Shown in pieces: positions 4,492 to 16,491 of a stretch of DNA of 64,000 nt. The position numbers and the translations under genes were made by a program. This DNA is from Owenweeksia sp. (lineage in GTDB: Bacteria > Bacteroidota > Bacteroidia > Flavobacteriales > Schleiferiaceae). The stretch lies in contig NZNV01000024.1 of assembly GCA_002695025.1 (NCBI GenBank), positions 1-64,000 of the forward strand, read 5' to 3'. The notes below the pieces were generated by a model. That model was not told where the DNA came from. It did no database searches and saw only the letters and a list, made by a program, of their open reading frames with translations. How positions within the stretch are numbered: the first letter of the stretch is position 1; each line of letters starts with the position of its first letter.

Positions 4492-4536
4492 GCTTGCGCA
4501 TAGTTTTTGTTTCTTTGGGCAACAGATCGATTTCGT

Positions 4537-6435
4537 ATGCAGAAGAAACTCTTTATGGGGCTTGTGATGAGCCTTTTTTGTTCCCTGGTAGTTGCCCAGT
4601 CCAACCGGGCCGTAAAATATTTCAATAAAGCGCGTGAAGCCGTCACGCTGAATGAGTACAAAGAAGCTAAAGAATACCTGGATAAGGCCATTGAAGACAG
4701 CCCTGGCTATTCGGATGCCCTGCTTTTTGCGGCTGACCTCTACCGTAAGGAAGGCAATACCGACAAGGCCCTACAGTACTACGAAACTGTGCTGCAAAAT
4801 CGCGGTCCTTATTACACCTATCTCTTTTACGGCCAAACCCTCTTTGCGGCTGGCCGCTACCAGGAGGCCATCAAAGCCCTGAACGCCTACCAGCAAAGTC
4901 CGCAGGCCAATCCCAAATATGCCGGAGAGATCCAGCAACTCATTGACAACTCCAGTTTTGCCATACAATCCCAGGCCAGTCCGCGTCCCTACAACCCCGA
5001 GAATATGGGCAAGGATGTGAATACCGATCAGATGGAGTATTTCCCTTCCATTTCTGCGGATGGCAACACTCTGGTGTTCACGCATCGTAATATGGAAGGC
5101 TCTAAAACGGACGAGGATTTTTGGGTGACGCAACGCGACAGCAGCGGGGCGCCCTGGAGCAAGGCCGAACCTTTGCGGGGTTTCCTCAATACCGAACTCA
5201 ACGAAGGTGCACAGGCCATTACTTCAGATGGGGGCATCATCTATTTTGCAGCTTGCGAAAGACGCGATGGTTTTGGCTCGTGTGACATTTATGCTTCCTT
5301 CAATCAGGGAGACGGCACCTGGAGCCGCCCCGTAAACCTGGGAGATAGTGTGAACTCCCGCGTTTGGGACAGCCAGCCCTCTATTTCTTCGGATGGCCGT
5401 ACGCTTTACTTTGTAAGGGGACGCAGCAGTTATGATAAGGATATCAATATCTATTATGCGGAGTTGCGCGCGGATGGCCGTTTCGGCAAAGCCAAACCCA
5501 TTCCCGGGAAGGTAAATACCAGTGGTCAGGAAACGTCTCCTTTTATTCATTTTGATAACCAGAGCCTGTACTTCTCGTCCAATGGACACCCCGGTATGGG
5601 CGATCTGGACTTTTTTGTATCCAGGCGGCAGCCGGACGGTAGCTGGGGAGAACCGGAAAACCTGGGCTACCCTATCAATACCGGTGGCCAGGAGTTCAGC
5701 CTTATTGTAGCGCCTGATGGCAAGACCGGCTTTTTTGCCAGTGATGCACTGGAGGATGGCTTTGGCCTGCTGGACCTGTATTCCTTTGAACTGCCGGAGG
5801 AAGTACGTGCCATTGAGATTGCCTACATCAAAGGTAAAGTGACCAATAAAAAGACCGGCCAGTCGATAGCTACCGAGATCAATTTTACCAATATTGACAG
5901 TGAAGAGAAAATCCTTACGGAGCGCAGCGGCCGCAGTGGGAATTACTTTGCCGTACTGCCTGGCAATGCGGATTATGCGCTGAATATACAGGCAGAAGGC
6001 TACCTCTTTTATTCCAAGAACTTCAGCCTGGCTACGCAAACCGCTGATCGGGCCTTTGAGCTGAACGTGGAGCTGGTGCCCATAGAAGTAGGAGAGCGGG
6101 TAAAGCTGGAGAATGTATTTTTTGCCACGGATTCTTACGAGCTGGATGCCCGCTCGCATGCTGAGCTGAACGAAGTGGCCAACTTCCTGCAGGCCAACCC
6201 CAGCGTAAAAATTGCACTGGAAGGACATACCGATAATGAAGGCTCTCCGGCTCACAACAAAACCCTGAGTGAGAACCGGGCAAAATCTGTGCAGAGGTAC
6301 CTGGTGGAGCAGGGGATAGCAGCAGAGCGGTTAAGTGCCAAAGGCTACGGTGATACTCAACCCGTAGCTGGCAATGATACGGAAGCAGGCCGCCAACTGA
6401 ACCGCAGAACGGAGTTGCGGATTACAGGGTATTAA
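4537..6435 (+). CDS. OmpA-family protein with TPR and PD40 (WD40-like) repeats
   Basis: 632 residues from the ATG at 4537 (MQKKLFMGLVM..., signal peptide ending near VVAQS). Order: TPR-type helices at about 25-140; WD40-like PD40 beta-propeller strands at about 165-405, with recurrent FPSISADGNTLVFTHR, PSISSDGRTLYFVRG and FSLIVAPDGKTGFF motifs; a carboxypeptidase-regulatory-like beta-sandwich at about 425-510; and an OmpA C-terminal peptidoglycan-binding domain at about 520-632 (FATDSYELDARSHAELNEVA, GHTDNEGSPAHN, NRRTELRI). This architecture is common in Bacteroidota and includes PorE-like envelope proteins of the Type IX system, but paralogues are many, so I do not assign porE. Expected to bind peptidoglycan from the periplasm. 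A bidirectional terminator follows. Confidence 0.88.
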   Translation: MQKKLFMGLVMSLFCSLVVAQSNRAVKYFNKAREAVTLNEYKEAKEYLDKAIEDSPGYSDALLFAADLYRKEGNTDKALQYYETVLQNRGPYYTYLFYGQTLFAAGRYQEAIKALNAYQQSPQANPKYAGEIQQLIDNSSFAIQSQASPRPYNPENMGKDVNTDQMEYFPSISADGNTLVFTHRNMEGSKTDEDFWVTQRDSSGAPWSKAEPLRGFLNTELNEGAQAITSDGGIIYFAACERRDGFGSCDIYASFNQGDGTWSRPVNLGDSVNSRVWDSQPSISSDGRTLYFVRGRSSYDKDINIYYAELRADGRFGKAKPIPGKVNTSGQETSPFIHFDNQSLYFSSNGHPGMGDLDFFVSRRQPDGSWGEPENLGYPINTGGQEFSLIVAPDGKTGFFASDALEDGFGLLDLYSFELPEEVRAIEIAYIKGKVTNKKTGQSIATEINFTNIDSEEKILTERSGRSGNYFAVLPGNADYALNIQAEGYLFYSKNFSLATQTADRAFELNVELVPIEVGERVKLENVFFATDSYELDARSHAELNEVANFLQANPSVKIALEGHTDNEGSPAHNKTLSENRAKSVQRYLVEQGIAAERLSAKGYGDTQPVAGNDTEAGRQLNRRTELRITGY

Positions 6436-6497: not shown

Positions 6498-6923
6498 CTA
6501 ATTTATTTCAATTACGTCCGGGGCTACCCACTGGGCAAAAGCACCGGGGCAAGAGCCACAGGCAGGAAAATTTACCGGATTGGCTGTAGAATAACATTCT
6601 ACCTCACGTTGTACTTCAATGCGGTTGCCACATTGTTGACAATCTTCATCCGCCATAGCTATGGCGCCAATGGCCCATTTATAGGTTGACGTACCACAGG
6701 GGCTTAACGTAACCGTAATCCCTGGCGGTATGCAATTTTCATCAGGATACGCAAAGCATACGGTGGAAGTTTCACAATCATACGCTTCCACATACTCTAA
6801 AAATACATAACAGGATGAATTGTTAATAATGTGTACTGAGGTGGATTGTGCTGAAGCCTGAAAGGTAAAAAGACCAGAGCATAGTGCGAACAGGAAGGTC
6901 CTGTAGTTGAGTAAACGTTTCAT
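6498..6923 (-). CDS. Small cysteine-rich secreted protein, unknown
   Basis: 141 residues. MKRLLNYRTFLFALCSGLFTFQASAQ is a signal peptide with cleavage after ASA or AQ. The mature part of about 115 residues carries many cysteines, including CxxxxxC (CETSTVC), CxxC (CQQCGN) and CGSC clusters, suggesting several disulfides in an extracytoplasmic protein. There is no lipobox and no recognisable T9SS tail. I do not recognise a family. The gene is followed by a shared terminator and preceded by a 178-base AT-rich gap in which I see no gene. A secreted disulfide-stabilised structural or inhibitor-like protein is one reading, but only as an inference from Cys content. Confidence 0.65.
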   Translation of the reverse strand: MKRLLNYRTFLFALCSGLFTFQASAQSTSVHIINNSSCYVFLEYVEAYDCETSTVCFAYPDENCIPPGITVTLSPCGTSTYKWAIGAIAMADEDCQQCGNRIEVQREVECYSTANPVNFPACGSCPGAFAQWVAPDVIEIN

Positions 6924-7761: not shown

Positions 7762-9012
7762 TCAGAAGATATAATAAGCCCCCACACCTACCGATGATCC
7801 GGTAAATACGCCTGGCAGGGCCCAGGCCAACAGGTTTTGAGAACCCAGCGCTATCCGGTAATGGCCGGCCAAAGTGAGTTCGTAGGCTGCACCTAAAGCT
7901 ACCGTATTGAAACCTCCATAAGTAAGTTCGCTTCGTAACTTTTGGTTTTCACGGAACCTCCATACGGACCCTACTCCCAGGCGTGGGATATAAGCCGTTA
8001 GGTAGCGGTACTCCACTAATCCGTAAAGTTCCTTCAGATATTTGGCGTTTGGGCAGGCTTTGGCAAAGCGCAAGGAAAGATGAAAGGGCATAAAAGCTGT
8101 ATAAGCGTCCCGGGTATTGCTGAAGAGCCCGTTTTGTAAACGTTCACGTTCCGAAGTCACCAGGCTGTCGTTCAGGTCAAAGATATTTTCAAAATACGCG
8201 CCCTGAAAACGAAAGGAAGAATCCACCCGCGTTTCCTGTAATCCGGACCAGAAGATCACGCCCACATCCTCCAGTTGGATATCCAGGCGGTATTTCTTTT
8301 TCTTCAGGGGAATGCTGGTCTCAAAGCCGGTGGCAAAACCCAGTCCGCCAAAGGCAATGCCGTTTCCGGAACGGGTTTCTCTCAGCGTATAATCCAGTGC
8401 CGCATCAATGTATTCTCCATTGGGTTCGGTATAGATCTCCGCCTTGCTCACATTATAAGAGCTGTATTCATGGCCTATTACGATGCCCACATCCACCTTG
8501 TATGGCAGGGAATCATGCACCGCCTCGTAACGGTATTTCAGGTTGGTGTACCACCAGCTCTCGTAGCGTGAAGGGCCCAGGTCTATGGTTTGATCCGCAA
8601 ATTGTTTATTACCGAAAAGAGCCAGTGCCACGGCATTTTCAGTAAACCGCGCCCCGGTAAACAAGCGGTTTTCAATGCTAAAATAGCTACCGGGCTTATA
8701 AGCTCCCAGTATGTAGAAGCCAGGCTGTTCATAGGAAATATCCAGTTCCTGCGAATATCCAAAACGGATACCTCCAGCTGCTTTTGATACCATATCCTTT
8801 TTCATATCCTCTTCCAGAAAATCGGAAAGTGCCAGGTTCAGCATGGAGGAGAAAGGTACTTTGGAATTGGCCCCACCCAATTCGTAATGAATGCCCACTT
8901 CCGTGGGTTTGGCCTTTAAAGCCAGTATTTGCTGGTTGCTCAGCGTGTCTTTTTGAGCCGTTGCCAGGTGGCCTACCAGCAAAAAGATCACCGCGTACTT
9001 TAGTTTCTTCAT
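7762..9012 (-). CDS. DUF5723-like outer-membrane beta-barrel protein (copy A)
   Basis: 416 residues with signal peptide MKKLKYAVIFLLVGHLATAQ. The mature part consists of alternating amphipathic strands ending in an aromatic residue (VGVGAYYIF), as expected of an outer-membrane barrel. The segment DIQLEDVGVIFWSG and the tail NTVALGAAYELTLAGHYRIA correspond to VSGSVIDLGLIKWTA and NNVGAGFDLKLGPVQLYV in the protein at 12920-14335, so the two are paralogues of the DUF5723 type. The upstream lipoprotein gene overlaps this one by ATGA (9009-9012), so they are translationally coupled and probably act together. No enzymatic motif is visible; function unknown. Confidence 0.72.
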   Translation of the reverse strand: MKKLKYAVIFLLVGHLATAQKDTLSNQQILALKAKPTEVGIHYELGGANSKVPFSSMLNLALSDFLEEDMKKDMVSKAAGGIRFGYSQELDISYEQPGFYILGAYKPGSYFSIENRLFTGARFTENAVALALFGNKQFADQTIDLGPSRYESWWYTNLKYRYEAVHDSLPYKVDVGIVIGHEYSSYNVSKAEIYTEPNGEYIDAALDYTLRETRSGNGIAFGGLGFATGFETSIPLKKKKYRLDIQLEDVGVIFWSGLQETRVDSSFRFQGAYFENIFDLNDSLVTSERERLQNGLFSNTRDAYTAFMPFHLSLRFAKACPNAKYLKELYGLVEYRYLTAYIPRLGVGSVWRFRENQKLRSELTYGGFNTVALGAAYELTLAGHYRIALGSQNLLAWALPGVFTGSSVGVGAYYIF

Positions 9013-11105
9013 TTGCCGGTTCTCAGTTTTAGGTCACCGGCCAGGGTAAGGTCCAGGTAGTTGTCATTGTAAAATTTAACGGGTCCCGGAAAATCGGGAG
9101 TGGAGAAGCGTGCTTCAAATACTATAAAGTGGCAATCCTTTAATAAACCTATTTTTTCAGCGGTAAGAGGGTAGTGCGTTTGGCTTTTTACCGGCTGGCT
9201 CACCCTTTGATTGGCGTCCAGTTGGGCAGGATCCAGTAGTTCCGAAGAGGTAAGTTCCCCAATACGGCTACCGTCCTGGTCCAGCAGTATCATATCCACA
9301 CCAACCGAAAAAGGAAAAGCATTGTTACCGATCAGTACCAGCTCCCCTGATTGTAATTGATCGTTGGGATCAAGCCCGGCATAACTGAACGTACTGGTAT
9401 CGCGGAACAGCAGGTTTTGGAAAGCCATGTTCATCGGTATCTCGGTAGAGAGGTAAGCCGAGATCCCATAATCCCGGTAAATAAACTGGTCAAATACATA
9501 AACCGGTAGGTTGCCGTTCAGGTAAGCATTCAGGTCCAGCTCCATGATATCGGGTTGCGACTCCAATAGCTCGGCAATATTGCTATTGCTGGTATTGATA
9601 GGTATCTGCAGCAGCCCGGGTGTGGGGCGGTCTCCGGGTTTATTTTCCGTAGCAGCGGGTATTTCCAGGTCCTGGCCCAGCAAGGTCCAGGTGATATTCT
9701 GCCCGGGCGAAGAATTTTTGCGGGTACTTAGCTCGTTGAATACCGTAACCAAGGGTGCCCCAATATAACTTTCAACCTCCAGGTTGAGCGATACATCCTC
9801 CAGCTTAAGCTGTTCGGCCTCAGTGAGGATATCAAACAGTTGCACAGCACTGCTTTCCTGCAATTGCAGGGTATCCTTGCCAAGGTACCCGTAACTGCGG
9901 GATGCCAGAAGCCCAATGATGCCGGTTTTCAGGAAAACACTGTCCTGCAGCGAAAGGGTAATGAGGTTGCCGGAAGAATCTATCCGCGCATTGGTTTCGG
10001 TATAAAAAGTATTGTACAGCCCGCTGCCCGGCTCCCCGGTAAGGTCAACGGTATAGCCAGAAATATCCTTTTCCGCCCGATGAGTGGCAAAGCTTCCCGC
10101 TGCGGCAGCCGGCACAATTTCATTAAAGCCCAGGGCAGTACCGTTGTTTAACGCGGAGGGAATATTGTATTCCAAAACTATTTTGTCCTCAATGGTGCTG
10201 GTAGCATCTATAAACATCTTACCGCTCTCTACTACCATGTGGGTAAGTTGGCCCGGAAAGTTCTCGATCTCCGTATTTTCCGTTTGCTCAAGCAGAACCT
10301 GGTTAGGGAATATGGCTGTGGCCTGTACGGGGTCCAGTTTTTTGATGGTTACGGTAATATCCAGTACATCACTGGTGTCAATGGGTACATCCACACCCAT
10401 GCTACCGGGTGAGTCAATATTCTGGATAGTAGCGCGGATCTTTCCTTCCACCACGATGTTGTTGGTGAGTTGTACAGAATCTGCGTACAGGGAATTAGGG
10501 GCGATGGAAGCCACGGTGCGGTTCATGATGTCCGGCCCACCGCTCAGGTTTTTAATGCTGTACTGGAAATTGGTGATCTCCACCGGGAATTCATTGAATA
10601 TCTTAACCACCAGCCAGCCGTCCTGTAGGGTCATACTCTCAAAGTACTGGCTGGCATCCAGGGTAAAACCATAGGGCCCGAAACCATCCAATGGGGGCAC
10701 GGCCGCATCACTGCCATTATTGATCACCACAATAGCCCCGGCTGCTCCTGATCTTAAAGCCAGTTTTCCCATGGAAATGGAATTTTGCACAACGCGGGTA
10801 CCCAGGTTGATATTCTGGAGCTTAACCGTATTGAAGAAGTCCTTATTAAAGCTCTCGTTGATCCTTTCAAATTTGAAATCTGCCAGCTTATGGCGGTAAA
10901 CAATATGGATTAGCCCGTCACTGGAACTTTGGAGCAGGGAATCTTCTACCATATCATTGATATCCAGACGGGAGTTTAAGATAGGGGTTAAAGCGTCCAC
11001 GTCCCATTGAGCAGGGTCGCGGTCGGGCCGGCATGCACCTAAAAATAAAGTACTTATAATCAGCGCCTGGCGGAAAAAAATGAATAAACGGGATATAGAG
11101 GTCAT
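9009..11105 (-). CDS. Large lipoprotein paired with a DUF5723 barrel (copy A)
   Basis: 698 residues from the ATG at 11103-11105. The frame can be opened by a TTG at 11112-11114 but the ATG is preferable. The lipobox LFLGAC gives a lipidated Cys near residue 25. The rest is beta-rich with no catalytic motif. The N-terminal part (ILNSRLDINDMVEDSLLQ, DGLIHIVYRHKL) and the C-terminal part (NAFPFSVGVDMILLDQDG, LLKDCHFIVFEARFST) align with LVNAHLTLGDLVKEDSL, DNLISISYREDSL, NGFPFDVDMDIDFMDEND and LLAARKIRIIGRLSTT of the lipoprotein at 11379-12908. It is therefore a paralogue enlarged by roughly 190 residues in the middle. ATGA overlap with the barrel gene. Function unknown; surface or periplasmic location inferred. 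Confidence 0.75.
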   Translation of the reverse strand: MTSISRLFIFFRQALIISTLFLGACRPDRDPAQWDVDALTPILNSRLDINDMVEDSLLQSSSDGLIHIVYRHKLADFKFERINESFNKDFFNTVKLQNINLGTRVVQNSISMGKLALRSGAAGAIVVINNGSDAAVPPLDGFGPYGFTLDASQYFESMTLQDGWLVVKIFNEFPVEITNFQYSIKNLSGGPDIMNRTVASIAPNSLYADSVQLTNNIVVEGKIRATIQNIDSPGSMGVDVPIDTSDVLDITVTIKKLDPVQATAIFPNQVLLEQTENTEIENFPGQLTHMVVESGKMFIDATSTIEDKIVLEYNIPSALNNGTALGFNEIVPAAAAGSFATHRAEKDISGYTVDLTGEPGSGLYNTFYTETNARIDSSGNLITLSLQDSVFLKTGIIGLLASRSYGYLGKDTLQLQESSAVQLFDILTEAEQLKLEDVSLNLEVESYIGAPLVTVFNELSTRKNSSPGQNITWTLLGQDLEIPAATENKPGDRPTPGLLQIPINTSNSNIAELLESQPDIMELDLNAYLNGNLPVYVFDQFIYRDYGISAYLSTEIPMNMAFQNLLFRDTSTFSYAGLDPNDQLQSGELVLIGNNAFPFSVGVDMILLDQDGSRIGELTSSELLDPAQLDANQRVSQPVKSQTHYPLTAEKIGLLKDCHFIVFEARFSTPDFPGPVKFYNDNYLDLTLAGDLKLRTGK

Positions 11106-11201
11106 CAATGGCAAATTAATAAAGAAAATACATATTCTGACTTTCCCTTGCTAAATAGAACATTGACTTGCAATTTGGGCCGGTTAACTAAAAAATTATG
11201 G

Positions 11202-11209
11202 CAAATTTA
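11202..11209 (-). promoter_or_regulatory. -7 box for the 11105 lipoprotein gene
   Basis: TAAATTTG on the minus strand (11209 to 11202) matches the Bacteroidota -7 consensus TAnnTTTG, 97 bases upstream of the ATG. I see no good TTG at the -33 spacing. It lies in the divergent 273-base region between the two lipoprotein/barrel modules. Confidence 0.4.
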
Positions 11210-11242
11210 CCGGAGCCTTAGGATATTTATCTATAGATCAAT

Positions 11243-11250
11243 TATTTTTG
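11243..11250 (+). promoter_or_regulatory. -7 box for the 11379 lipoprotein gene
   Basis: TATTTTTG matches TAnnTTTG on the plus strand and would give a 5' leader of about 120 bases before the ATG at 11379. It is 34 bases from the opposite-facing -7 box at 11202-11209, so the two divergent modules may share control DNA. No clear -33 element. Confidence 0.4.
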
Positions 11251-11378
11251 AACGCGATAAATCATAACAAGCACCAAATTATTTAGCCATTGCCTCGATT
11301 TTTACTGTAGAGTGGCTATAGAAAAGAAGATTGCGTGATTATGGTTCACGAATAACTTTAAACAAACGGCAAAGGTTC

Positions 11379-12908
11379 ATGAAGGTGAAAAAGATTTTAT
11401 ACGCGGCTATCGGTGGATTCGCTTTGTTAGGGTGTTCCCGTGATAAAGTGGATTTTGACTTGTTGAAGGATATCCAGCTAAGCCCTGGATTAGTGGTGCC
11501 TTTGGTAAACGCCCACCTTACACTGGGCGACCTGGTTAAAGAAGATTCTCTGATCAATATAGGTCCGGATAACCTGATCAGTATTTCATACCGTGAAGAC
11601 AGCCTCTTCGGGTTTAGTGCTCTTGAATTTGTGGAGATACCCGATCAGGATCCCACCCCGGTTCCCGTTAAAGTAGGAGATCCTCCCTTTGAAGTAGGCA
11701 TTGCCTTAGGCACCCTGGCTGGTTCTGAACTGAATACGGCTCTGTTTGATCAGGGAGTACTTCGCTACAGTGTGCAAACCTTGCTTCCTGTTACTACGGA
11801 TGTGGAGTTTACCCTTACGTTCCTCAATGCAACGCGCAATGGAAGTATGTTCCAGCATACGTTCACTTTACCAGCCTTATCCACTTCTTTTGAAGATTCC
11901 CTGGATATTTCAGGTATCAGTTTTGACCTTAGCAACGGTGGCACCGAGATCAACTACCTTGGCCTTAAGATGGAAATTACCGATCCGGGCCTTGCTCCTC
12001 CCGGGCAGGATTTCCTGAATTCTGTCCAGCTTTCCGGTTTAAAAGTGGCCCAGGCCGATGGTTTTTTCGGCCAGAAGGTCATCAACATTCCCAACGGAGA
12101 TTTTGATTTTGATATTTCAGCCCTTAAAGATCTTACCGATGGGTTGTACCTCGCTAATCCTACCATTCGTTTGATCACCGCCAGTTCTATGGGAGTAGGG
12201 CTTAAGTTCAAGCCTGATTTTTTTGGTGTGAACGGAACTGGAACGGTAGCTGGCCTGGAAGCTTCCGAGTACCGCATTGCTCAGGCAGGTTCCAGCTCCA
12301 TAATGGATACCACCATCATTACCATTGATAAATCAAATTCTGAAATAGTTGATTTTCTGGCCATACTGCCTAAGCTCATCACTTATGGAGGGCAGGCGCA
12401 GCTTAACCCTGACGGCCCTGGATCGGTGAGCAACTTTATTACCAAGGACGCCCGTATGAATATAGGTCTTCAGGTGGATATTCCGCTGGAGATCACCGCT
12501 AAAGATATGCGTATTGAAGAGGTGATCAATGATGTAAAGATCAGCAACAGTGACAATCCGGATGCTATCGAATCATTAATCCTTTTCTTCCGTACTCGCA
12601 ATGGTTTTCCCTTTGATGTGGATATGGATATTGACTTTATGGATGAGAATGACCAGGTTTTGGAAACCGTAAATATTCCCTTACTGGATGCTGCTCCTGT
12701 AAACAGTAATGGCAGGGCGGTAACGCCTACCGAATCTACGTATGATGTGGTATTTGAGAAAGGCGATATTGAAGGCCTTCTCGCAGCCAGAAAGATCCGT
12801 ATCATAGGTAGACTGAGCACTACCAACAATGGCCAGGATGTGGTAAAGATGTTTACCGATTACGATCTGGATGTACAGATTGCTACCCAAACTAAAGTGA
12901 ACTACTAA
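11379..12908 (+). CDS. Lipoprotein paired with a DUF5723 barrel (copy B)
   Basis: 509 residues from the ATG at 11379 (MKVKKILYAAIGGFALLGC). The open frame reaches back to 11331 but that extension destroys the signal peptide. The lipobox is ALLGC with Cys at about residue 19. The mature protein is beta-rich, Asp-rich and without catalytic motifs. It shares start and end blocks with the 698-residue lipoprotein on the other strand (see that entry) and is its shorter paralogue. The barrel gene follows after 11 bases and a third lipoprotein after that, giving a three-gene operon. Likely envelope-located partner of the barrel; function unknown. Confidence 0.75.
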   Translation: MKVKKILYAAIGGFALLGCSRDKVDFDLLKDIQLSPGLVVPLVNAHLTLGDLVKEDSLINIGPDNLISISYREDSLFGFSALEFVEIPDQDPTPVPVKVGDPPFEVGIALGTLAGSELNTALFDQGVLRYSVQTLLPVTTDVEFTLTFLNATRNGSMFQHTFTLPALSTSFEDSLDISGISFDLSNGGTEINYLGLKMEITDPGLAPPGQDFLNSVQLSGLKVAQADGFFGQKVINIPNGDFDFDISALKDLTDGLYLANPTIRLITASSMGVGLKFKPDFFGVNGTGTVAGLEASEYRIAQAGSSSIMDTTIITIDKSNSEIVDFLAILPKLITYGGQAQLNPDGPGSVSNFITKDARMNIGLQVDIPLEITAKDMRIEEVINDVKISNSDNPDAIESLILFFRTRNGFPFDVDMDIDFMDENDQVLETVNIPLLDAAPVNSNGRAVTPTESTYDVVFEKGDIEGLLAARKIRIIGRLSTTNNGQDVVKMFTDYDLDVQIATQTKVNY

Positions 12909-12919
12909 GCCTCGGAACT

Positions 12920-14335
12920 ATGAAGAATTGGATACAGACTTTAGCTTTTGTTCTTGTTTCTGTGGCCGCTGTGGCCCAAAGCAACCTTACCCTCTATAAT
13001 TTTAATGCCATTCCCCAGTCTCTGCATACCAACCCGGCTTATCCCCAGCAAACAAAGATCTGGGTAGGTATACCGGTACTGTCAGGAGTTCATTTTCACT
13101 TTCATAACAATGGCTTTAAACTGGTGGACCTCCTGGCTACGGGCAGTGATGTGAATCAGAATATTGATAATATCATCAATAACCTGGATGAGAAGAGCCA
13201 CTTGGCGCTTACCCAGAATGTAGACCTCCTGGGCATCGGCTTCAAAATGGGTAAAGGGTTTTTCACCATGGGAGCGCAGCAGGTGGTGGATTTCCGTATG
13301 GATTACCCGGTAGACCTGCTGAAGCTGGTTCGTTACGGTAATGACCAGTACATCGGCCAATCCCTTAACATAAACCAGTTTGATTATGAAACCCTCGTAC
13401 GCACCAATTTTTACCTGGGTTACCAGCATTCCCTTATGGACGACAGGCTGAGTATTGGTGGGCGTATCAAATATATTATTGGCCAGCAACATTCGTACGT
13501 AGAACGTATGAACGCTGAGATCAATACCAATGACGATGGCTTTGAACTGGACATTAAAACCGATATACTCATCCGTACGGCAGGAGTTTCCAGCCTTCTT
13601 GACAATACCTTCGGAGATAATCTCATGGGAAATGTGTTGCCTCAGAACAGCGGATTTGCCGGTGATTTGGGCGTGTTTTACCGGATCAATGATAAAATTG
13701 ATGTTTCGGGCAGTGTGATAGACCTGGGCTTGATTAAATGGACAGCCAATACCCGCGATTATGTAAGTAATGGGCAGTTTGTTTACGATGGTATTGATGC
13801 AGACCTTTCCAATGGAGATCTGGAAGGGTCGCTGAAGGAAACCCAGGACAGCCTTAAAGAAGCCTTTGATTTTAAGGAAGTGGATGGTGAAAGCTATTCA
13901 CGCTGGTTAAGTCCACGCCTGTTTGTGGGAGGTAATTACCACTTTACCGATAAACATGCGGTAGGAGCGCTTTACCACGCCCGTATGTGGAACGGAGAGA
14001 TGTTCCATGATGTAAGTTTCAATTACCAGGGACGCTGGTCGCGGATCTTCCAGTTTATAGCTTCCTATTCAGTTATTAACGGAACCTACAATAACGTAGG
14101 AGCGGGCTTTGACCTGAAGCTTGGTCCTGTGCAGTTATACGTGCTTTCGGATAATATATTGGGAGCCATGATGTATGAGAACCTGCAGACCACCAATGTA
14201 CGCCTGGGTATAAACCTTGCCTTTTACGGCAAAAAGGATAAAAAGCCTGAAAATACGCCATTGACAAATCCGGTAGTTCCGGTTCCCGCAACGGATGATG
14301 CCGGTTCTGTACCTGATAATGACGATAACAACTAG
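12920..14335 (+). CDS. DUF5723 family outer-membrane protein (copy B)
   Basis: 471 residues with signal peptide MKNWIQTLAFVLVSVAAVAQ. The opening NLTLYNFNAIPQSLHTNPAY is characteristic of the DUF5723 group of Bacteroidota, in which asparagine-proline (NPA) near the N-terminus recalls PorP/SprF-like barrels. About 14-16 beta strands follow. The C-terminus departs from the barrel into an acidic, Pro-rich tail (residues about 440-471, ending DNDDNN), which copy A lacks. A paralogue of the 7762-9012 protein. Second gene of the lipoprotein-barrel-lipoprotein operon. Expected in the outer membrane; no activity can be assigned. Confidence 0.78.
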   Translation: MKNWIQTLAFVLVSVAAVAQSNLTLYNFNAIPQSLHTNPAYPQQTKIWVGIPVLSGVHFHFHNNGFKLVDLLATGSDVNQNIDNIINNLDEKSHLALTQNVDLLGIGFKMGKGFFTMGAQQVVDFRMDYPVDLLKLVRYGNDQYIGQSLNINQFDYETLVRTNFYLGYQHSLMDDRLSIGGRIKYIIGQQHSYVERMNAEINTNDDGFELDIKTDILIRTAGVSSLLDNTFGDNLMGNVLPQNSGFAGDLGVFYRINDKIDVSGSVIDLGLIKWTANTRDYVSNGQFVYDGIDADLSNGDLEGSLKETQDSLKEAFDFKEVDGESYSRWLSPRLFVGGNYHFTDKHAVGALYHARMWNGEMFHDVSFNYQGRWSRIFQFIASYSVINGTYNNVGAGFDLKLGPVQLYVLSDNILGAMMYENLQTTNVRLGINLAFYGKKDKKPENTPLTNPVVPVPATDDAGSVPDNDDNN

Positions 14336-14371
14336 TACTAACGAACACACTTTTAACTAAATCTCAACACA

Positions 14372-15202
14372 ATGAAGAAAGTTGTTTTTAATTCACTTTT
14401 GATTGCTTCACTGGCCGCTATGGTTGCCTGTGATGAAGAAGATCCATTAGGTACTGACGGTTCAGCCGAAGCCAAATTAGGCGAGTACTACCTGGAAGCC
14501 GAATCAATTGTTTCCTACCTCTATAATATTAGTGATCGTGCGTATAACGATTCAACTTTTAACGCTTCAGATTCTACTGCAATATGGGGTATTCCGGTGG
14601 TGGCAACTCCTGCCTCCGCTATGGAATTCCGTTTTGGTAACGGTATTACCGGTAATGACGGTATTACCCGCAAAGGAATGATAATGGTGACCGAAAACGG
14701 TGACTTTAACAGTAATGGTAGTCTTACCCTTAATTTCCAGAACTTCAGGGTTGATGACAAGAAAATAGGAGGTCCCAATACCAGCATGTCCATCAGTAAC
14801 TCCGGTAACGGAACTTTTGGGGTGAGCGTTACGGATTTTTCCGTGAACGATGAATTCACTTACAGTGGTTCAAAAAACATCACCTGGAATACCGGTCAGA
14901 GTACCTCCACAGAAGCAGATGACAACTACAATGTTGGCGGTAGCTTTAGCGGTACCGAATCAGCTACAGGAAACAGCATTTCCGGTAATCTTACGGAAGC
15001 ACTGGTATACGATCGTAGCTGTGCCTATGGGGTGGTTTCCGGTTTGGTTGATTTCACACTGGCTGGTGATAGTACTCTTGTTGCCAACAGCGGCAGCGTT
15101 GACTTTAAAAAAGATGACGGCTGCAAAAATGCGGCTGTGATTACCATCAATACGGAAAGCGGTGGTAAACTGGTATTCCCTAAAACCTTTAATGGTTTTT
15201 AA
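14372..15202 (+). CDS. Lipoprotein of unknown function, third gene of module B
   Basis: 276 residues; MKKVVFNSLLIASLAAMVAC gives a lipidated Cys at residue 20, followed by an acidic DEEDP tether. The mature part is rich in Asn, Ser, Thr and Gly with repeated short strands (NGITGNDGITRKG, SMSISNSGNGTFGVSVTDF, GGSFSGTESATGNSISGNL), suggesting an extended beta-solenoid or beta-sandwich. It contains two cysteines in the mature C-terminal part. It lies 36 bases after the barrel gene and is absent from module A. No family recognised. Confidence 0.7.
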   Translation: MKKVVFNSLLIASLAAMVACDEEDPLGTDGSAEAKLGEYYLEAESIVSYLYNISDRAYNDSTFNASDSTAIWGIPVVATPASAMEFRFGNGITGNDGITRKGMIMVTENGDFNSNGSLTLNFQNFRVDDKKIGGPNTSMSISNSGNGTFGVSVTDFSVNDEFTYSGSKNITWNTGQSTSTEADDNYNVGGSFSGTESATGNSISGNLTEALVYDRSCAYGVVSGLVDFTLAGDSTLVANSGSVDFKKDDGCKNAAVITINTESGGKLVFPKTFNGF

Positions 15203-15219
15203 GCAAAACGGGTAATACC

Positions 15220-16491
15220 TTAATACTTATACTTGGGCCAGCGGGTTTTTAAAAACTCCCTGGCCCTTTTTTCTTGGGCATTTTCTCCGGGATTGTAAAA
15301 GGAAGTGCCGGTAATTTCACCCGGTAAAAATTCCTCGTCCACAAAATTACCTTCATAAGCGTGAGCATATTGGTAATCCTTTCCGTATCCCAGTTCTTTC
15401 ATGAGTTTGGTGGGTGCGTTGCGGATGTGCAGCGGAACGGGCAGGTCTCCGCTGTTACGTACTTCCGCTATGGCTTTATTGATAGCTTCGTAACTGGCGT
15501 TGCTCTTGGGAGAAGTGGCCAGATATACCACGCATTGCGAAAGTATAATGCGCCCTTCCGGCCAGCCTATTTTCTGAATAGCGTCAAAGGTGGTGTTGGC
15601 CAGTAAAAGTGCGTTTGGGTTAGCCATACCGATGTCTTCCGATGCCAGTATTACCAGGCGTCTGGCAATGAACTTGGGGTCTTCGCCACCTTCTATCATA
15701 CGCGCCAGCCAGTATACTCCGGCATTGGGGTCACTACCTCTGATGGATTTGATGAAGGCAGAGATGATATCGTAATGCTGCTCCCCGTTCTTGTCGTAAA
15801 AGGCCGGGCGGTTCTTTAGTATTTTTTCTACTTCATCATTGGTTATCCTGGTTTCAGTATCCATGTTTCCGGCCACCAGTTCCAGGGTGTTGAGTAGTTT
15901 ACGGGCGTCACCCCCAGAGTAGCGGAAAAGGGCCTCTTTTTCAGCCACCACCAGTTTTTTGTCCAGTAACCATTTATCTTCGGCAAGGGCGCGTTGCAGC
16001 ATTTTATCCAGGTCCTCTTTACCCAGCGCTTTAAGGGTATATACCTGGCAACGTGACAAAAGGGCGGATATTACCTCAAAACTGGGGTTTTCCGTGGTAG
16101 CACCTATTAAGGTTACAGTGCCTTTTTCAACTGCTCCCAGCAAACTGTCCTGTTGCGATTTACTAAAACGATGTATCTCATCTATAAAGAGAATGGGTGT
16201 CAGGCCCTGTGCAAACAGGCCCTGACCTTCAGCTTTCTGGATAACCTCGCGTACTTCTTTCACACCGGAATTAATAGCACTGAGAGTGAAGAAAGGGCGG
16301 CCTGAAAATTTGGCAATCAGTCCTGCCAGGGTGGTTTTTCCCACTCCGGGCGGCCCCCAGAAGATCATGGAAGGAACTATTTTTCGTTCCAGCAGTTTTC
16401 TTAGTGAGCCTGCCTTTCCAACCAGTTCTTCCTGACCGATGAACTCATCGAAGTTTGTAGGTCGCATGCGTTCTGCCAGCGGGATTGCCAT
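15220..16491 (-). CDS. rarA: Replication-associated recombination protein A (RarA/MgsA AAA ATPase)
   Basis: 423 residues, typical for RarA. AAA core: Walker A WGPPGVGKTT at about 45-54, Walker B LFIDEIHR at 101-108, sensor-1 IGATTENPSFE, then the C-terminal tetramerisation region with SLAxR-like YWLARMIEGGEDPKFIARRL and ASEDIGMANP. RarA acts at stalled replication forks and is a relative of clamp-loader ATPases (Mgs1/WRNIP1 in eukaryotes). Its 3' end converges on the lipoprotein gene ending at 15202 with 17 bases between. It is divergent from the rhomboid gene at 16539. Confidence 0.95.
   Translation of the reverse strand: MAIPLAERMRPTNFDEFIGQEELVGKAGSLRKLLERKIVPSMIFWGPPGVGKTTLAGLIAKFSGRPFFTLSAINSGVKEVREVIQKAEGQGLFAQGLTPILFIDEIHRFSKSQQDSLLGAVEKGTVTLIGATTENPSFEVISALLSRCQVYTLKALGKEDLDKMLQRALAEDKWLLDKKLVVAEKEALFRYSGGDARKLLNTLELVAGNMDTETRITNDEVEKILKNRPAFYDKNGEQHYDIISAFIKSIRGSDPNAGVYWLARMIEGGEDPKFIARRLVILASEDIGMANPNALLLANTTFDAIQKIGWPEGRIILSQCVVYLATSPKSNASYEAINKAIAEVRNSGDLPVPLHIRNAPTKLMKELGYGKDYQYAHAYEGNFVDEEFLPGEITGTSFYNPGENAQEKRAREFLKTRWPKYKY

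Follow-up and report, generated by a model that had tools for sequence, protein, structure and literature searches.

The window, a stretch of 64,000 nucleotides from Owenweeksia sp., carries two modules, A and B, whose lipoprotein–barrel pairs (lipA–barA and lipB–barB) are homologous, as judged from profile comparisons, and whose lipoprotein–barrel neighborhood is conserved among relatives, being found at 27/27 lipB loci, in 23/23 lipA genomes and at 41/73 DUF5723 barrels. We propose that each pair would make up an outer-membrane unit in which a FadL-fold barrel and an all-beta lipoprotein are tethered to peptidoglycan, in the manner of the PorE–PorP–cargo systems; to our mind, this reading stands an even chance of being correct.

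Two homologous pairs with conserved neighborhoods

The locus comprises the following features:

4507..6435, plus strand: TPR/PD40/OmpA protein with a PorE-like domain order; in relatives it often adjoins the modules
7762..9012, minus strand: barA, 416-residue outer-membrane barrel protein, DUF5723-related, without the NP[AGS] motif
9009..11105, minus strand: lipA, 698-residue lipoprotein, lipobox Cys25, ATGA overlap with barA
10236..10808, minus strand: module of lipA absent from lipB, lipA residues 100–290 (coordinates from residue numbers, boundaries chosen by us)
11106..11378, no strand: lipA/lipB divergent intergenic region
11379..12908, plus strand: lipB, 509-residue lipoprotein, lipobox Cys19, two acidic residues within the following six
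12920..14335, plus strand: barB, 471-residue DUF5723 barrel, predicted FadL fold
13031..13039, plus strand: NPA motif of barB, residues 38–40 (coordinates from residue numbers)
14372..15202, plus strand: lip3, third of the B-side genes, encoding a 276-residue lipoprotein, retained in family relatives
15220..16491, minus strand: AAA ATPase of the rarA/mgsA type; a conserved flank, thought to lie outside the complex

The positions of the five genes (barA, lipA, lipB, barB and lip3) and the ATGA overlap are as given in the initial annotation; a PHROGs search with these five genes returned no match. Between the OmpA/PD40 gene and barA, positions 6498–6923 encode a small secreted-looking multi-cysteine protein, which is retained in G013. 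TAnnTTTG boxes in the lipA–lipB gap were considered as a shared divergent promoter; the closest relative (L003, G013, of the same genus) has none in its gap, whereas the whole window contains 51, and we therefore make no claim of a shared promoter.

The likeness of the two lipoproteins, and that of the two barrels, had been claimed in the initial annotation, and profile–profile comparison bore it out, with E-values of 3e-55 for lipA and lipB (494 columns) and 1.1e-30 for barA and barB (403 columns); a lack of similarity between the lipoproteins was looked for and not found. BLASTP aligned lipA residues 501–694 with lipB at E 6e-11, with a second segment in the N-terminal block (E 2e-4), and barA with barB at E 3e-7, and none of 300 shuffles scored as well for either comparison. 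By contrast, lip3 showed no similarity to the two lipoproteins: of 300 shuffles, 201 and 92 reached its local scores against them. The barB protein is a member of DUF5723 (PF18990; 301.5 bits versus a Pfam cut-off of 26.8). The window's barA matched no Pfam family at E ≤ 1 and thus lies below the DUF5723 cut-off; 8 of the 19 aligned barA proteins match DUF5723 at E ≤ 0.01.

We surveyed 80 genomes of the window's family for the adjacency of lipoprotein and barrel genes. Matches to lipA at E ≤ 1e-130 were present in 23 of them, the same 23 that had barA matches, and according to the listed coordinates barA came directly after lipA, sharing its contig and strand, in all 23 (the lipA search counted 32 genomes overall, those beyond the 23 being weaker and mostly lipB-type or small-genome lipoproteins). 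lipB-type matches were found in 64/80 genomes and DUF5723 matches in 59/80. lipB and barB were adjacent at each of the 27 loci tested, out of 30 (three at contig ends were omitted from this junction check), and in 26 of these the distance from the lipoprotein stop codon (first base) to the barrel start was −1 to 16 bp. At the 27th locus (L046, in G037) the coding sequence of the lipB orthologue includes an in-frame TAA, and 89 bp separate the stop used from the start of the barrel.

At the level of the phylum, DUF5723 was detected in 153 of the 247 genomes sampled; many of the genomes surveyed are incomplete. We hand-picked 80 DUF5723 regions, 70 of them from outside the window's family and mostly high-scoring; profiles recovered the barrel in 73, and the other 7 were dropped. 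Directly upstream of the 73 barrels we found a lipoprotein of the family in 41 cases (including eight short proteins of family f3 and four lipB from the window's family), another gene in 17 and no gene in 15; the lipoprotein profile was iterated on its own matches, so that the E-values of included members are flattered. A family lipoprotein next to a DUF5723 barrel is thus common, not universal. The opposite outcome, lipoproteins and barrels that are rarely neighbors, was looked for and did not appear.

Module turnover and age of the locus

The lipoproteins vary in length through their middle part. A profile of lipA residues 100–290 matched 12/12 small-genome lipoproteins fetched (best E 8e-24) and 7/25 other-family lipoproteins at E ≤ 1e-4, versus none of 29 lipB at E < 0.05. 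This distribution runs against the earlier proposal that about 190 residues were inserted in lipoprotein A: it argues for loss of the module from lipB as the more likely polarity, repeated gain being a possible alternative. In family f54, the module profile matched the lipB of L246 (E 2e-13); the lipB of L245, despite its length of 684 residues, gave no match at E < 0.01. Two small genomes encode very long lipA relatives, one of 1,962 residues with nine module matches (L232:3019-8904) and one of 1,634 residues with seven (L234:2261-7162). At the other extreme, the upstream protein of family f3 is 178–199 residues long (eight examined), and its profile matches both lipB ends. The simplest picture suggested by these alignments is a lipoprotein core formed by both ends, with optional modules in between.

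In trees that carry SH-aLRT support only, contain some long branches and are drawn with a midpoint root, lipA and lipB each form one lipoprotein clade (support 100 and 99, respectively). In the barrel tree barA forms one clade (100) and barB does not; barA does not join barB, its nearest neighbors being other-family barrels, at 87 and on a long branch. When the small-genome relatives were added, lipB grouped with them and with three other-family lipoproteins, apart from lipA (SH-aLRT 95). On the lipoprotein tree, the split between A and B would therefore predate the window's family, and the view that an ancestral pair was duplicated, inverted and then diverged is not supported as a local event. 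A recent inverted duplication is also at odds with another family, in which the head-to-head layout recurs together with its flanks: in both f54 genomes fetched, barB–lipB faces lipA–barA (L245, and L246, where barB is split in two). The B end of L245 bears rarA and a rhomboid gene, and an OmpA/PD40 gene lies beyond its A end, in the same orientation as in the window; kdsA and a gene for a 355-residue protein intervene on the OmpA/PD40 side, and no lip3 was found in this locus.

Within the window's family, lipA and lipB are head to head in 11/23 genomes, a pattern for which four changes on the lipA tree suffice, consistent with losses that started from a head-to-head ancestor. In the fetched regions of families f48 and f51, only the A module is present, and rarA adjoins 9 of the 13 main copies. 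Taken at face value, the head-to-head locus looks old and differently pruned among lineages. L248 and L250 hold a second, diverged lipA–barA pair without kdsA, in genomes that also have a main pair. In L147, L148, L150, L151 and L156, which belong to another family of the same taxonomic order, rarA and a rhomboid gene stand on one side of the DUF5723 barrel, as they do in the window.

Predicted folds, the NP[AGS] motif and surface signals

The model of barB (pLDDT 81.2, pTM 0.78) is predicted to have the FadL fold. Its best match was CymD (Z 23.9 over 307 residues, rmsd 4.6), followed by TodX, TbuX and FadL entries (Z 21.2–23.1), so that the FadL-family channels span Z 21.2–23.9; two type IX translocon chains, which we take to be PorV, gave Z 20.5–20.7, three Bacteroidota BAM chains, probably BamG judging from the entry titles, gave Z 17.2–18.2, and barrels outside the FadL group reached at most 16.1 (OmpG). 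barB also shares with the FadL, TodX, TbuX and CymD channels an NP[AGS] motif near the N-terminus. The FadL mutants N33A, P34A and delta NPA are among the entries matched by the barB fold, and the NPA motif was therefore a target of work on FadL, where it is located in the N-terminal hatch. The motif is present in 30/30 barB and in 68/69 barrels of the fetched regions, versus 0/19 full-length barA in the family and 0/17 outside it (L261 is not among these 17, since its barrel carries the motif and gives a better score as barB). By sequence, then, barA is without a feature kept by nearly all relatives examined. Both barrels differ from the FadL-type channels in giving no match to Toluene_X (PF03349) at E ≤ 1, and the lipoprotein partner is a further difference.

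The lipA model is nearly all beta (pLDDT 86.8, pTM 0.62) and had a single strong match, BDI_1231 of Parabacteroides distasonis (PDB 4H3W), with a Foldseek E-value of 4.1e-10 and a Z of 16.5 (rmsd 6.8, 293/313 residues), the next match being at Z 8.0. Both lipoprotein profiles gave weak matches to the same part of 4H3W (E 0.061 and 0.57). BDI_1231 has 330 residues, compared with 509 for lipB and 698 for lipA. Searches of open-access PMC articles found no paper on 4H3W/BDI_1231, two that came up being unrelated by title, and none mentioning DUF5723. LEA_2/WHy-like domains, considered in view of an N-x-FPF look, were rejected: at E ≤ 0.1, the families that 32 and 31 members of the lipoprotein sets matched did not include LEA_2.

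Surface lipoproteins are expected to have two acidic residues among the six that follow the lipidated cysteine (excerpted text of PMC12578637). In the window, lipA has two, lipB two and lip3 four. At least two are found in 29/30 lipB and in 10 of the 21 lipoproteins of other regions with a called lipobox (of 28), compared with 6 of the 20 lipA with a call (of 23; 3 are without a call, and that of L008 is plainly misplaced). On this signal, lipB is likely to be surface-exposed, and lipA may face the periplasm because so few of its members carry it.

Neighboring genes and candidate functions

The protein encoded at 4507–6435 contains TPR, PD40, CarboxypepD_reg and OmpA domains, the third being weak (E 0.0074, 17.1 bits versus a cut-off of 32.3). 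With PD40 standing for the propeller, this is the domain order of PorE, given as TPR, propeller, CarboxypepD_reg and OmpA in the part of PMC9143113 consulted. It scored below the cut-offs both of the PorE model NF052230 (293.2 bits versus 600) and of the CHU_0125 model (311.9 versus 620); deletion of chu_0125 damaged outer-membrane integrity (excerpt of PMC5891637). A homologue flanks a module in L223-L225, L266, L267, L268, L270 and L276, and lies near the A module in L245, L249, L251, L252 and L262. None was seen in L226 and the f51 regions, nor in 8 of 13 regions (L264, L265, L269, L271-L275), some of which are ended by contig ends. Elsewhere, DUF5723 and OmpA occur in a single protein in five of six ORFs tested, the sixth (L173) having OmpA and TSP_3 only. 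The barrels with such a C-terminal OmpA fusion (L149, L155, L158, L168 and L210) had no family lipoprotein directly upstream.

Outside the family, lipA, barA and a gene that we recognized by a motif, and take to be kdsA (KDO-8-phosphate synthase), are consecutive genes of one strand, −23 to 12 bp apart, in 15 of the 17 A modules of the fetched regions (L245-L247, L249, L251-L260 and L262). Three of these 15 genes, together with that of L261, were tested, and all pass TIGR01362. This arrangement could point to a function of module A in the envelope that is linked to lipopolysaccharide. Against it, in the window's family kdsA is found elsewhere in 20/23 lipA genomes, with no over-cut-off match in the other three, and the two second-copy A modules are without kdsA; we regard such a function as very unlikely.

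Among known systems, the closest are those in which a FadL-family barrel works with a surface partner of its own. In the available sections of PMC9143113, PorV and the PorP-like barrels are called FadL-family and bind secreted proteins, porE-like genes adjoin porP-like genes, and the PorE–PorP–PG1035 and SprF–SprB systems of type IX secretion join, as here, a barrel of the FadL family to a surface partner specific to it; the TPR/propeller/OmpA peptidoglycan anchor of PorP described there resembles the PorE-like neighbor, which reinforces the PorP-type analogy drawn in the initial annotation. The partner in those systems is a type B CTD cargo, according to the same sections, whereas here it is a lipoprotein whose gene overlaps or touches the barrel gene. 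Unlike in the PorE–PorP systems, the barrels are DUF5723-type and the PorE-like neighbor is under the PorE cut-off. Neither barA nor barB matched the PorP/SprF families in Pfam at E ≤ 1, Pfam presumably containing a model of this type. BamG–BamH and BamG2–BamH2 of Bacteroidota likewise associate a FadL-fold barrel with a surface lipoprotein (passages of PMC12611786 and PMC12578637): BamG is a FadL homologue that grips the lipoprotein BamH by its N-terminus; BamG2–BamH2 form a putative operon, like the gene pairs here (the latter source, in part).

That analogy bears on a second alternative, an accessory machine for the assembly or export of surface proteins resembling a second BamG–BamH (BamG2–BamH2). 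The Z values of the barB model against the BAM chains are in keeping with it. Yet neither barA nor barB matched the NCBIfam BamG model (NF053685) at E ≤ 1, a separate BamG is encoded elsewhere in the genome (G000:C7:190249-191505, 347.3 bits versus a cut-off of 250), and no BAM chain was among the PDB sequence matches listed for lipA and lipB. The fold matches listed for the lipA model, headed by 4H3W, likewise contained no BAM chain; we do not take this absence as an exclusion, and the lipoproteins may still be kin to BamH. We hold this machine to be distinctly unlikely. FadL-type uptake, in which barB would pass hydrophobic molecules captured at the surface by the lipoprotein, as in SusD/SusC, draws on the hydrocarbon and fatty-acid channels that head the barB-model matches and on the retention of the FadL-type motif throughout barB. 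The fold does not, however, show uptake, because the FadL-family PorV and PorP-like barrels bind secreted proteins (PMC9143113, in the sections cited), and the lack of a Toluene_X match for either barrel and of the motif in barA also weigh against uptake, which we consider unlikely. Distinctly improbable, too, is a broader scenario, an ancient cell-wall-tethered two-barrel surface machine in which B, a FadL-type barrel with a hatch motif, and A, its paralogue without a hatch, would shuttle cargo, either hydrophobic or related to lipopolysaccharide, between the barrel and the cell surface. Each would have a lipoprotein that can be extended by modules added between two fixed ends, the length in relatives ranging from about 180 to about 1,960 residues.

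The best reading, by analogy, is that the pairs would work like PorE–PorP–cargo or BamG–BamH while being assigned to neither, and we infer physical association, surface position, tethering and function of the pairs as follows. Lipoprotein and barrel would be co-produced through translational coupling and each pair would form one outer-membrane unit, the lipoprotein being attached to its FadL-fold barrel; the conserved two-ended core of the lipoprotein would sit on the barrel, and the optional middle modules would lengthen it. The PorE-like TPR/PD40/OmpA protein would anchor this unit to peptidoglycan, and the whole would act like PorE–PorP–cargo, with a lipoprotein as outer partner in place of type IX secretion cargo. 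B would retain the FadL-type N-terminal motif; A would have lost it long ago and, for this reason, is probably a scaffold version rather than a FadL-type channel. Counted against the proposed unit are the acidic surface signal seen in only 6/20 lipA, the PorE-like neighbor that falls below the PorE and CHU_0125 cut-offs and is unseen in several regions, and the 32/73 DUF5723 barrels without a family lipoprotein directly upstream.

FadL-fold barrels with an outer partner (PorP, PorV and BamG) have emerged as unexpected machines of Bacteroidota in the excerpted literature. The DUF5723 pairs would be a further barrel set, widespread in the phylum sample, in which each barrel gene is joined to a gene of a single lipoprotein family. 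The one relative of that family found with a solved structure is 4H3W, a protein with no function described in the literature searched. The paired versions with and without the FadL-type motif offer a built-in comparison for the role of this motif.
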